From NCBI RefSeq assembly GCF_025751555.1, contig NZ_JAOWLB010000001.1, forward strand, positions 434,001 through 498,000: 64,000 nt of DNA, given 5' to 3'. This document shows positions 53,250 to 57,976 of the stretch, piece by piece. Numbering within the stretch: position 1 is the first letter of the stretch; each line of letters begins with the position of its first letter. The position numbers were made by a program, and so were the translations under genes. The notes below the pieces were generated by a model. The model was not told the origin of the DNA. It was given only the letters and a program-made list of their open reading frames with translations, and searched no databases. Source of the stretch: Ruegeria aquimaris (GTDB lineage: Bacteria > Pseudomonadota > Alphaproteobacteria > Rhodobacterales > Rhodobacteraceae).

Positions 53250-53378
53250 CGGGGGTCCTTTCACTAGATGAGTCGCCACGATACTATATCTTGCATTTAT
53301 GGCCACCGAAACCGCGACATAAGGTATGGCTTTTTGGGCACCCTCCACCGGCAAACCCATGCCCCGTTCTCGAAGCAT

Positions 53379-53407
53379 TTGACTTTCCACAACCAAAGCC
53401 AGACTAT
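53379..53407 (+). promoter_or_regulatory. candidate promoter of the lipoprotein-Slam pair
   Basis: TTGACT (53379-53384) and GACTAT (53402-53407), 17 bases apart, 42 bases before the lipoprotein ATG. The -35 box is good, the -10 weak. Confidence 0.35.
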
Positions 53408-53448: not shown

Positions 53449-54501
53449 ATGAGACCCTATTTCGTTGCGCTGGCAACGTGCGTTGCGTTGTCGGCATGTG
53501 GCGGATCGGATGCCGTTTTTGGAACCGATGGCGGCACCGATGGCGGAACCGGCACCGGTGGTGGCACCGACACCGGAAACCCGATCAACAGCGACCGGAC
53601 CGTACCGCCAGGCACGGCATCGCCCTCGCCCGCCGTCGGTATCTTTCGCACCGAGGCCACTAGCACTGACTCCACCTATGATGGAAACGGCTTCGCCAGC
53701 GACATCAGCTATAATTCGACCAACGACACCTTCACCGTCGACAACCTCGGTTTTGATGGTGACAACACCTATTCCCGCGGCTCTACTGTCGGCAGCCTCG
53801 GACCCTTCGCCGTGTACGAGGCCGACGCTCAGTATCTCGACAGTTTCGATGGCGCGCCGATCAACCAGTTCACCCATCGCGCGGTCTATGGCGTGTCCAC
53901 ATCGGGCAACACTCAGTTTGCCATCGTCCGCACCGGTGCCTATGTCGGCTACGGGTTCGGCGGTTTCATCTACCAGCGAGACAACAGCGTGACGCTGCCC
54001 ACCACCGGGCAGGCACAGTTCTCCGGACAACTTGCCGGTCTGCGCGACTACAATGGAACCGGCGGCCTTGAATACACCACCGGCGACGTGGTGATTGCCA
54101 TCGACTTCGACGATTTCAACGACGCGACCGGAACGCGGGGCGATGCAGTGCGCGGTTCGATCAGCAACCGGCGCATCTATGACATTAACGGCAATGATGT
54201 GACAGCCAACGTCATTTCCCGCGTCAATGCCGAGAACAATACCACGCTGTCACGCATCCCGACTGCGACCTTTACCGTTGGTCCGGGTGCAATGGACGAC
54301 AACGGCGAGATCATCGGAACGCTGCAGAGCTATTACACCGACTCGAACGGTCAGACCCAGATTTTCGAGGAAGGCAACTACTACGCCATCGTCTCCGGCG
54401 ACAACGTCGACGAAATCGTTGGCGTAGTCGTGCTGGAAACCACGAAAGATCCGATGGCGTCTTCCGTTCGCGAAACCAGCGGCTTCATCGTCTACAACTG
54501 A
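53449..54501 (+). CDS. surface-lipoprotein candidate with TbpB-like barrel
   Basis: 350 residues. The signal peptide ends in the lipobox LSAC with Cys17 as the lipidated residue and Gly at +2 (outer membrane). A Gly/Thr/Asp-rich flexible linker (about 20-45) follows, then a beta-rich region with many Asp, Asn and Thr, ending [13 protein letters not shown]. The C-terminal half has the alternation of an 8-stranded barrel, like TbpB/HpuA-type surface lipoproteins. It is eight bases upstream of a Slam-like gene, which supports surface display. Ligand unknown. Confidence 0.72.
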
Positions 54502-54509
54502 GGCGCACC

Positions 54510-55898
54510 ATGCGGGTCCGCCTCGGGACAGTGCTGAGCGCCCTGCCAACAGCCTTGATGCTGTTGGCGGGACAACCTGTGGTCGGCGAACAGCTCACCC
54601 CGGACGAGTTGCGCGCCACCGCCCACCAGGCGCTGCGCATCGGCGCGCCGGAGCAGGCCTATGCCTATTCGCGGGCCCTGCTACAGCGCGATCCCAACGA
54701 CCGGCAGGCGCATCTGATCCACTCGCGCGCGGCCCGCACGCTGGGCCGGTTCGACGAGGCAAAATCGGCGGCGAAATCGGCCTGGGCGCTTTCCACCACC
54801 GACGAACAGAAGTTTGCCAGTTCCATGGTGATGGCGCAGGCCCTCTCCTCTTCCGGTCAGCGCACCATGGCGCAATGGTGGTTGAGACGCGCCGTCGAGC
54901 ATGCCCCGAACGACGACTTGTCCCGCCTTGCCATCCGTGATTTCAAATATGTCCGCGCCCGCAATCCATGGCTGACACGCCTGTCGTTTTCGGTCACCCC
55001 GGACAGCAACATCAACAACGGCTCTTCCCAGCGATCCTCGTTCCTGAACTATCGCCTGTCCGAGGCGATCTATGGCCAGCCGGTCGAATACCAGCTGGGC
55101 GGCACCGCGCTGGCGCTTTCTGGCGTCGAATACTCACTTGGCCTGACGACACGCTACCGGTTCCGCGAAACGCCCACCCGCGCGCATGACGTGATCTTCA
55201 CCACCGATCTGCGCGCCTATACGCTCTCGTCCGAGGCCAAGTCCCTTGCCCCCACGGCCAAGGCCAGCGATTTTGCCTTTGCCTCCTATACCCTCGGCTA
55301 TGGTCAGCGCGGCATGAATTTCGAACGCCGCGGCGAATACCGGTTCGTCGTCGACCTGGGGCAGAGCTGGTATGGCGGCAATGAGTACGCCCGGTTTGCC
55401 CGGCTCAGTCTGGGCCAGACCTATCAGCTCCAACGGGGCCGACAGATCAACGCCCGGATCGCAGGCGAACGGCAGTGGGGCGTGACCCGCAGCGATCAGG
55501 ACACCGTGCGCGCCGACCTGTCCTATACCCTGCCGCTGAGCGGGGGAACCATCCTGTGGACCAACCTGACCGGCGCAGTCGGCACCTCGAACGTGGCCGC
55601 CGACGAATTCACCGAGATTGGCCTGCGCGCCCAGCTTGTCTTTGCCAAACCCGTATTCGGCGCCACCGCGCAGCTGGGGCTCTGGGCGCGCAACCGCGAC
55701 TATGACGTGTCGCCACACAGCCGCGACGGCCGTCAGGAGGACAAGTTCGAGGCCGATTTCACGCTCATTTTCAACCAGATAGACTATTACGGTTTCAACC
55801 CGACCATGCGCGTTTCCGCCTCGCGCACCGACAGCAACATCGCGCTTTATGACGCCAAGCGGTTTGGCGTGAACTTCGGCATTCAGTCCGCTTTCTGA
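54510..55898 (+). CDS. Slam-like surface lipoprotein assembly modifier (TPR + DUF560 barrel)
   Basis: 462 residues. A signal peptide (to about residue 26) precedes an N-terminal helical TPR-like domain (about 30-150, with AYAYSRALLQRDPNDRQAHL). From about residue 150 the sequence becomes beta-rich, starting NPWLTRLSFSVTPDSNINNG (the SNIN motif of Slams) and ending with alternating strands up to a terminal FGIQSAF, which fits an outer-membrane barrel insertion signal. Slam proteins move TbpB-type lipoproteins to the cell surface in Neisseria. Its gene directly follows a matching lipoprotein. Confidence 0.75.
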   Translation: MRVRLGTVLSALPTALMLLAGQPVVGEQLTPDELRATAHQALRIGAPEQAYAYSRALLQRDPNDRQAHLIHSRAARTLGRFDEAKSAAKSAWALSTTDEQKFASSMVMAQALSSSGQRTMAQWWLRRAVEHAPNDDLSRLAIRDFKYVRARNPWLTRLSFSVTPDSNINNGSSQRSSFLNYRLSEAIYGQPVEYQLGGTALALSGVEYSLGLTTRYRFRETPTRAHDVIFTTDLRAYTLSSEAKSLAPTAKASDFAFASYTLGYGQRGMNFERRGEYRFVVDLGQSWYGGNEYARFARLSLGQTYQLQRGRQINARIAGERQWGVTRSDQDTVRADLSYTLPLSGGTILWTNLTGAVGTSNVAADEFTEIGLRAQLVFAKPVFGATAQLGLWARNRDYDVSPHSRDGRQEDKFEADFTLIFNQIDYYGFNPTMRVSASRTDSNIALYDAKRFGVNFGIQSAF

Positions 55899-55965: not shown

Positions 55966-56394
55966 ATGGCGCTGAAATATCTCCATGTCATGGTCCGGGT
56001 GAAGGACCTTGAGAAATCCATGGCCTTTTACGAACTGCTCGGCCTGCGCGAAATCCGCCGCTATGAAAGCGAGCAGGGCCGGTTCACGCTGGTCTACCTG
56101 GCCGCGCCGGGGCAGGACGAAACGCCGCTGGAACTGACGTACAACTGGGACGGCGACGAGGGGCTGCCTTCGGACAGCCGCCATTTCGGCCACCTCGCCT
56201 ATGGTGTCGATAACATCTACGAGATGTGCGCCATGCTGCAAGATAACGGGGTCACCATCAACCGGCCGCCACGCGACGGGCGCATGGCATTTGTCCGCTC
56301 GCCCGACAACATCTCGATCGAGCTGTTGCAGAACGGCGAGGCGCTGGCACCGGCAGAACCCTGGGTCAGCATGGAAAGCACCGGCCACTGGTGA
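55966..56394 (+). CDS. gloA: lactoylglutathione lyase (glyoxalase I)
   Basis: 142 residues. Glyoxalase I turns the methylglyoxal-glutathione adduct into lactoylglutathione. MALKYLHVMVRVKDLEKSMAFYELLGL has the metal His7, and HFGHLAYGVDNIYEMCAML carries the second-half metal ligand. DGDEGLPSDSRHFGHLAYGV and SPDNISIELLQNGE are typical. The stop overlaps the following DUF1194 GTG by four bases, so an operon is likely. Confidence 0.88.
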   Translation: MALKYLHVMVRVKDLEKSMAFYELLGLREIRRYESEQGRFTLVYLAAPGQDETPLELTYNWDGDEGLPSDSRHFGHLAYGVDNIYEMCAMLQDNGVTINRPPRDGRMAFVRSPDNISIELLQNGEALAPAEPWVSMESTGHW

Positions 56395-57095
56395 CCGGGG
56401 CGGCACGGGCGGCGTTCTGCGCCGCGATCCTGCCGTGGGGGTCGGGTGCGACAGAGGCAGCCGAGTGTCGGCTGGCGCTGGCGCTGGCGCTCGATGTCTC
56501 GCGCTCGGTCGATGCGCGCGAACACGCGCTTCAGCGCGGCGGGCTGATCGCAGCCCTAGGCGCCCCCGAGGTGCGCCGCGCGTTTTTCGCAGCCCCGCTG
56601 CCGGTGGCTCTGGCCGTCTATGAATGGAGCGGGCCGGCAGAACAGCACCTGTTGCTGGACTGGGTTCTGATCCGGGCGCCCGACGATCTGGATCGTGTGG
56701 CAGACCGGATCGGCCAGGCTCCCCGCAACGGCACCGAAGCGCCCACCGCCATGGGACAGGCCCTGCTCTATGGCGCGGCGCTGATGGCGCGCGGCCCCGA
56801 CTGCCTGTTCCACACCATAGACATCTCGGGCGATGGTGAGAACAACGAAGGGCCCGGACCGCAAGATGTCTACGCCCTTCCCGGGTTCGCCGCGATCACG
56901 GTCAATGGCCTGCCGATCAACGGTGCGGAATATGAGACCGAGATCCAGCTCATCCCCTGGTTTCTGGACAATGTGCGCCACGGTCCCGGTGCTTTTATCG
57001 AGGTTGCCCAAGGGTTTGCCGATTTCGAACGCGCCATGGCCGCCAAGCTGGAGCGCGAGCTGTCGGGCCTGGTGATCGGCGCGGTCCTGCCATGA
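56391..57095 (+). CDS. DUF1194 vWA-like exported protein, copy 1
   Basis: 234 residues. A hydrophobic N-terminus (to about ATEAAEC) is probably a signal peptide. The DUF1194 domain follows with the MIDAS-like LALALDVSRSVDAREH (DxSxS) and IDISGDGENNEGPG, features of von Willebrand A folds that bind a metal. GTG at 56391 (GTGA overlap) is the start. Function unknown. Its own stop overlaps the next paralogue by four bases. Confidence 0.82.
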   Translation: MTGAARAAFCAAILPWGSGATEAAECRLALALALDVSRSVDAREHALQRGGLIAALGAPEVRRAFFAAPLPVALAVYEWSGPAEQHLLLDWVLIRAPDDLDRVADRIGQAPRNGTEAPTAMGQALLYGAALMARGPDCLFHTIDISGDGENNEGPGPQDVYALPGFAAITVNGLPINGAEYETEIQLIPWFLDNVRHGPGAFIEVAQGFADFERAMAAKLERELSGLVIGAVLP

Positions 57096-57976
57096 TCCGG
57101 CTGTGCGCCCTTCTCCTCTGCTTGAGCGCCGCACCCGTCCACGCCGCCTGCCGCCAGGCGCTGGCGCTGGGGCTCGACGTGTCCGGCTCGGTCGACGCTA
57201 CCGAATACCGCCTGCAACTTGATGGACTGGCGGCAGCGCTGCTGGCGCCCCAGGTGCAGGACAGGCTGCTTGCCATGCCCTCGGCACCTCTGCGGCTGGC
57301 CGTCTTCGAATGGAGCGAGCCGGGGCATCAGCGCCTGATCCTCACCTGGCGCGAGATCCGCACCGCCGCCGATATCGCCGCGATCGCCGCCCAGCTCACC
57401 CGGACCCGCCGTGCCCCCGCCCCGCCCGGCACCGCCATCGGCCCGGCAATGGCGCATGGCGCGGCATTGCTCGGACAACAGGCCGACTGCTGGAAACGCA
57501 CCCTCGACCTGTCAGGCGACGGCAAGCACAACATGGGTCCGCATCCCCGCGACATGCGCGCGGCGCTGTCCGATCGGGGGGTGACCATCAACGGGCTGGT
57601 GATCGGGGCAGACAGCACCAACGCCACCGACCACCGCCAGGTGCAGATCGGCGAGCTCTCCGCCTATTACCGGGCCTGGGTGCTGACCGGACCCGATGCC
57701 TTTGTCGAGGTTGCGCTGGGATATACCGACTATCAGCGCGCGATGGAGCGCAAGCTGCTGCGCGAACTCGAAGGGCTTGTCCTGTCCGCGCTGCCCGTAG
57801 ACACGACAAACGGGGCCGCACCCGATAAGCCCGAAGTCCGCCCGGATGTTGCGCTTTACCGGGGCGGCGCCGTCCGCGCCCGCCCCGGCCTGCCCGAAAC
57901 GCAGCCATGCCTGCTTAATAGATGTACCGAATCTGGTCGGTCCAATAGCGCTCGACCCGCTTCAGCGCGCTGGTGA
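57092..57976 (+). CDS. DUF1194 vWA-like exported protein, copy 2, with unusual tail
   Basis: 294 residues. Signal peptide MIRLCALLLCLSAAPVHA, then DUF1194 with ALGLDVSGSVDATEY (DxSxS intact) and LDLSGDGKHNMGP. It is a clear paralogue of the preceding gene. The conserved domain ends near residue 230; the last 60 residues (starting TTNGAAPDKPEVRPD and ending SARPASARW) look unrelated, and the end overlaps the convergent MarR gene by 62 bases. The tail may be real or the result of a lost stop codon. Confidence 0.8.
   Translation: MIRLCALLLCLSAAPVHAACRQALALGLDVSGSVDATEYRLQLDGLAAALLAPQVQDRLLAMPSAPLRLAVFEWSEPGHQRLILTWREIRTAADIAAIAAQLTRTRRAPAPPGTAIGPAMAHGAALLGQQADCWKRTLDLSGDGKHNMGPHPRDMRAALSDRGVTINGLVIGADSTNATDHRQVQIGELSAYYRAWVLTGPDAFVEVALGYTDYQRAMERKLLRELEGLVLSALPVDTTNGAAPDKPEVRPDVALYRGGAVRARPGLPETQPCLLNRCTESGRSNSARPASARW

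Follow-up and report, generated by a model that had tools for sequence, protein, structure and literature searches.

A lipoprotein gene and a Slam-like exporter gene form a tightly paired, predicted surface-display cassette in Ruegeria aquimaris and other roseobacters

Results

The 64,000-nucleotide stretch of Ruegeria aquimaris DNA studied here (contig NZ_JAOWLB010000001.1, positions 434,001 to 498,000; hereafter the window) carries on its forward strand a lipoprotein gene directly followed by a gene for an outer-membrane protein of the Slam or type 11 secretion system (T11SS) kind, as defined by Grossman et al. 2021 (PMC8406197). An earlier note on this DNA had proposed a Slam-like exporter paired with a TbpB-like surface lipoprotein, and both open reading frames (ORFs) were found where it had placed them: the lipoprotein ORF opens with an ATG at 53449 and its stop codon ends at 54501 (350 amino acids), the eight intervening bases occupy 54502-54509 as the note had counted, and the exporter ORF runs from its ATG at 54510 to 55898 (462 amino acids).

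The exporter matches the DUF560 (SlipAM) family PF04575 with 25.7 bits against a cut-off of 22, a match that spans a beta-barrel domain at residues 154-450 (54969-55859) and bears out the family assignment of the earlier note. It is the sole PF04575 match in its own genome at an expectation value (E) of 0.001. The proposed TPR-type N-terminus was likewise recovered: a presumably periplasmic TPR domain covers approximately residues 31-135 (54600-54914), with a TPR_14 match of 27.6 bits at residues 31-69 (cut-off 23.5) and sub-threshold matches of other TPR models up to residue 136, and the profile of the exporter family matches solved TPR proteins. The SNIN string pointed out in the note is present within PDSNINNGSS, and both of its asparagines, N167 and N169, are invariant among 45 aligned exporters; the literal string [DSTNE]NIN occurs in 31 of 96 long exporters. 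The protein ends in QSAF with Phe462 as its last residue, and a C-terminal Phe, also noted earlier, is found in 93 of the same 96 sequences.

The upstream gene encodes a predicted surface lipoprotein of the fHbp/TbpB-barrel superfamily, here termed a "class A" cargo, an assignment drawn from its translation, from homologues upstream of exporters and from profile links to FHBP_C and TbpB_B_D. The lipobox LSAC (53488-53499), with lipidated Cys17 and Gly at +2, can be read directly from the sequence, and Cys17 is invariant across 48 aligned class A proteins, a set itself chosen by a lipobox rule. The Gly/Thr/Asp-rich stretch described earlier extends to about residue 57. This linker (residues 17-57, 53497-53619) is the least conserved part of the mature lipoprotein and is probably disordered; in the AlphaFold2 (AF2) model the predicted local distance difference test (pLDDT) is very low in the linker and in most of the N-terminal half. 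A handle-like N-terminal domain would follow at approximately residues 58-183 (53620-53997), its boundaries being approximate; this assignment is drawn from the alignment of class A with a second, class B, profile, and the AF2 model of the region is of low confidence. The C-terminal barrel domain occupies approximately residues 184-350 (53998-54498). The mature protein is acidic, with a net charge of -26, 9.3% Asp, 12.3% Thr and 0.3% Lys.

The barrel homology of this lipoprotein is reached through its relatives. The earlier note had suggested a comparison with the TbpB-barrel family PF01298; the window protein alone gives no match to it, but homologues do. Indeed no Pfam family at all matches the window lipoprotein at E 1, and the Pfam models are insensitive for class A cargo: FHBP_C is matched by eight of the 48 class A relatives, and most of the 48 are not matched at E 0.01. 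In a profile comparison with hhalign, class A aligns to class B over most of its length. The class B profile found nothing in the R. aquimaris genome, so the link between the classes is too weak for a search of this kind, and the class A profile matched no solved chain at E 5. A full-length AF2 model of the lipoprotein from six sequences was rejected as a fold in its own right (mean pLDDT 40.7). Foldseek searches with it returned TbpB, hemophilin and fHbp (probability 0.82-0.98) among green fluorescent proteins (GFPs), none reaching E 0.001; with the barrel model GFPs ranked first, again none reaching E 0.001, and the VIA second look ranked fHbp top. Homologue chain and model together point to a C-terminal eight-stranded barrel of the TbpB/fHbp type. 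With 334 amino acids the mature lipoprotein has space for one handle-barrel unit, and it looks like a single unit closest to fHbp and not like the two-lobed TbpB. In this respect the reading of the earlier note has to be corrected.

The pairing of cargo and exporter was followed across 198 genomes of the family. Searched with the window protein, 105 of them contain an exporter (five of these matches are weak, with E above 1e-8), and a cargo detectable by tblastn is present in 49, of which 48 belong to the 105; the R. aquimaris genome itself has one detectable cargo. Leave-one-out profiles (E < 1e-3) identified a cargo homologue directly before the exporter at 93 of 103 loci. These loci remain from 106 regions (100, plus L002-L006 and the window) after removal of L166, which has no exporter, and of L005 and L070, duplicates of L067 and L006. 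The profile comprised 86 sequences, from which the tested locus and all rows at least 60% identical were removed each time; L005, L097, L120, L131 and L151 were excluded from its construction, and L151 owes its class B label to its presence in the alignment used for labelling and failed the leave-one-out search. Control segments, which came solely from the other strand and from the region downstream of the exporter, gave no match to the cargo profile (0 of 14,089; best control E 0.083 with filters off), and the profile passed a positive check. The two-gene arrangement is not due to chance, and the pair proposed in the earlier note is supported both by the DUF560 match and by this count. The lipobox caller passed 89 of the 94 class A or B loci and missed L006, L068, L076, L089 and L118, some of them at contig edges. 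In 85 of 86 cases, no more than 50 bases separate the cargo stop from the first in-frame exporter start.

Some loci depart from this arrangement. One genome, G176, has a cargo match and no exporter match; its cargo lies between thyX and gloA and the reading frame stops within the barrel. Default filters missed this truncated cargo, and control and exporter-less loci were rerun with filters off. Another genome (G184) shows breaks in both the cargo and the exporter gene, in L165 the exporter is split, and in L093, L147 and L162 the exporter lies too near thyX for a cargo, that of L162 being also without the TPR part.

The A/B cargo class changes four times on the exporter tree, which left out rows shorter than 300 amino acids (4 of 103), whereas single-label shuffles average 30-33 changes. 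This clustering may be taken as weak evidence for partner matching, because near-copies and shared ancestry cluster labels too. In a quick tree the exporters of L120, L151 and L156 form a separate clade (100 in the Shimodaira-Hasegawa-like approximate likelihood ratio test, SH-aLRT); the lipoproteins near them, one on the opposite strand, match neither cargo class and are a possible third cargo type.

PF04575 by itself is a poor detector of this exporter in the family: it matches 67 of the 198 genomes, some through another kind of gene, compared with 105 for the window protein. Some relatives (G086:C3, G001:C12, G156:C18 and others) possess, at another locus, a second type of PF04575 gene with a stronger match (up to 117 bits), perhaps an animal-type T11SS.

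In 59 of 89 class A/B cargos (from L002-L164) we also observed a motif [NQ]P[FL] no more than 15 residues from the lipidated Cys, compared with one of 45 other lipobox ORFs, called mechanically, of the same loci. It is a possible routing tag; the window lipoprotein does not have it (53497-53540).

A candidate sigma-70-type promoter of the pair, TTGACT-17 bases-GACTAT, is located at 53379-53407 on the forward strand. The 8-mer TTGACTTT occurs on either strand in 38 of 75 thyX-cargo intergenic stretches (the window's own stretch stands outside this count), compared with at most five for any 8-mer after one shuffle of each. Upstream of thyX, the window contains ACTATATCTTG at 53283-53293, and ACTATATC recurs in 20 of the 75 stretches. 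This element, which we take to resemble an NrdR-type box, more likely belongs to thyX than to the cargo-exporter pair.

Identified by Pfam, the neighbours give the gene order thyX (reverse strand), cargo, exporter, gloA, DUF1194, DUF1194, a MarR-type regulator (reverse strand) and an aminotransferase. The DUF1194 genes at 56391-57976 are overlapping tandem paralogues of von Willebrand factor A (vWA)-like type. Among loci with enough DNA, the adjacent upstream gene is thyX in 79 of 96 and the adjacent downstream gene is gloA in 88 of 97, with both in place in 72 of 93; DUF1194 was detected in 65 of 94 exporter loci. For comparison, 20 of the 93 genomes without an exporter match were sampled, some of which (G014, G015, G026, G035) have another PF04575 gene elsewhere. 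Fifteen of the 20 have a thyX match and five do not; gloA adjoins thyX in 14 of these 15 (in 11 with a gap of at most 255 bases) and DUF1194 is present in nine of the 15. No segment of these 15 loci (2,849 segments, filters off) matched the cargo or the exporter profile at E 1. thyX, gloA and DUF1194 thus form a conserved block, and the pair entered it, or was lost from it, as a unit.

Discussion

Our analysis shows the family membership of both genes, the homology of the barrel by way of relatives, the close pairing of cargo and exporter and their behaviour as a cassette. On this basis we consider it likely, with good confidence, that the two genes are a dedicated cassette, with one cargo and one translocon, for surface display of the Slam or type 11 secretion kind. 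To judge from the sequences, the cassette probably encodes a lipid-anchored binding protein together with the outer-membrane gate that moves this protein to the cell surface. The signal of the lipoprotein suggests Sec export, lipidation at Cys17 and transfer to the outer membrane. By analogy with Slam1 and TbpB, the DUF560 protein would be an outer-membrane protein whose TPR domain lies in the periplasm, and it would recognise the eight-stranded C-terminal barrel before the lipoprotein has folded, probably with the assistance of Skp; the lipoprotein would then be passed through the exporter and fold outside, held at the surface by its lipid and flexible linker. The R. aquimaris genome contains an OmpH/Skp-family gene, a finding that fits the Skp-assisted route of Slam1 (PMC9090332). 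Most likely the lipoprotein, anchored by its lipid, binds a ligand or mediates adhesion at the cell surface; that this function is independent of a TonB-dependent receptor we regard as evenly balanced.

Three other explanations have to be weighed. The lipoprotein might act in iron or haem piracy in the manner of TbpB or HpuA, capturing an iron carrier and passing it to a TonB-dependent receptor. An earlier survey (PMC5449769) indeed reported a receptor gene in 120 of 185 Slam clusters, and hemophilin and TbpB are among the Foldseek matches of the weak full-length model. However, the R. aquimaris genome (5.04 Mb, 99.97% complete) has no match to PF00593 or PF07715 at E 0.001, in searches that each matched three of 14 control genomes, and the sister species G031 has no PF00593 match. 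Furthermore, PF00593 is absent from 87 of the 198 family genomes, including 49 of the 105 with an exporter, and shows no association with the exporter. The receptor partner of TbpB proper was not detected, which agrees with the doubt of the earlier note about a known iron-protein receptor, and piracy appears very unlikely. We consider it similarly unlikely that the lipoprotein never leaves the periplasmic side of the outer membrane and that the exporter does something different: all verified exporters belong to the animal-associated cluster 1 according to PMC12282271, so that no localisation is known for the cluster of the present exporter, but both the tight pairing and the truncated barrel of the one cargo without an exporter fit the relation of a translocon to its substrate.

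Nor do we give more than very slight credence to the idea that the exporter serves the neighbouring DUF1194 proteins (vWA with a metal ion-dependent adhesion site, MIDAS) or shares one process with ThyX and GloA. Co-occurrence statistics (PMC12282271) suggested a shared process, and the gene order in the window and the frequency of thyX, gloA and DUF1194 beside the 103 exporters agree with it. Against this, the neighbours remain at a like rate in the sampled genomes without an exporter, which makes their co-occurrence weak evidence for a shared function; in addition, DUF1194 was not detected at 29 of 94 exporter loci, and both DUF1194 proteins of the window match DUF1194 alone in Pfam. A dedicated display cassette remains our preferred explanation. 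More tentatively, and with somewhat less than even confidence, the Slam route could be a lineage-wide TonB-independent display system of roseobacters, in which a two-gene cassette of an exporter and a dedicated fHbp-fold lipoprotein was repeatedly gained or lost, two cargo classes track exporter clades, and the post-Cys [NQ]P[FL] tag of most members may aid routing.

The earlier note had regarded the pair as a little-studied case, a view that has to be corrected: this kind of locus is already predicted in print, and the present pair is a further case of it. Grossman et al. 2025 (PMC12282271) described the same syntenic locus, with its predicted cargo, in 11 strains of Rhodobacteraceae/Roseobacteriaceae, using the locus tags of R. 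pomeroyi as reference. Among the literature matches listed, subscription papers excluded, no further paper dealt with T11SS or Slam in roseobacters. What the present analysis adds is the close association of cargo and exporter, their behaviour as a cassette, the division of the cargos into two classes and the lack of any detectable TonB receptor. The pairing makes many marine cargo-exporter pairs available for testing, and a host without a detectable TonB-dependent receptor could reveal a purpose of Slam display beyond iron piracy.

The marine cluster 3 locus of that paper consists of thyX, a cargo lipoprotein, the T11SS outer-membrane protein, gloA and at least one DUF1194 gene in the same bacterial families, and the same genes lie side by side in the window. 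Its predicted cargos measure 282-375 amino acids, with an eight-stranded barrel in ten of 11 and a helix within a barrel loop in some. In contrast to the 0.21 predicted cargo per exporter reported there for 145 cluster 3 genes, for which distant location, undetected similarity or partner loss were offered as explanations, an adjacent cargo stands at 93 of 103 exporters here, in a set not identical to theirs. Our count favours undetected similarity and suggests that limited detection accounts for most of the shortage of cargo described there. The neighbours, taken there as functional hints, persist here without the pair, and our results separate the two.

Like Slam1 and Slam2 of Neisseria with TbpB, LbpB, HpuA and fHbp, the pair combines a TPR and DUF560 exporter with a lipobox-bearing cargo, and fHbp and HpuA share its predicted single handle-barrel unit. 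In contrast to these systems, the sequences are very distant, the named relatives are marine and no TonB-dependent receptor was detected, which also sets the R. aquimaris genome apart from the receptor-bearing majority of the earlier Slam survey. Hemophilin and HrpC, cargos of T11SS-1B, likewise have one handle and one barrel; they are described as soluble (PMC8406197), whereas the window protein has a lipobox. The closest counterpart is the C-terminal barrel of fHbp, which gives the best structural and profile matches of the cargo; the identity is approximately 20% over about 100 residues, and nothing suggests that factor H is the ligand.
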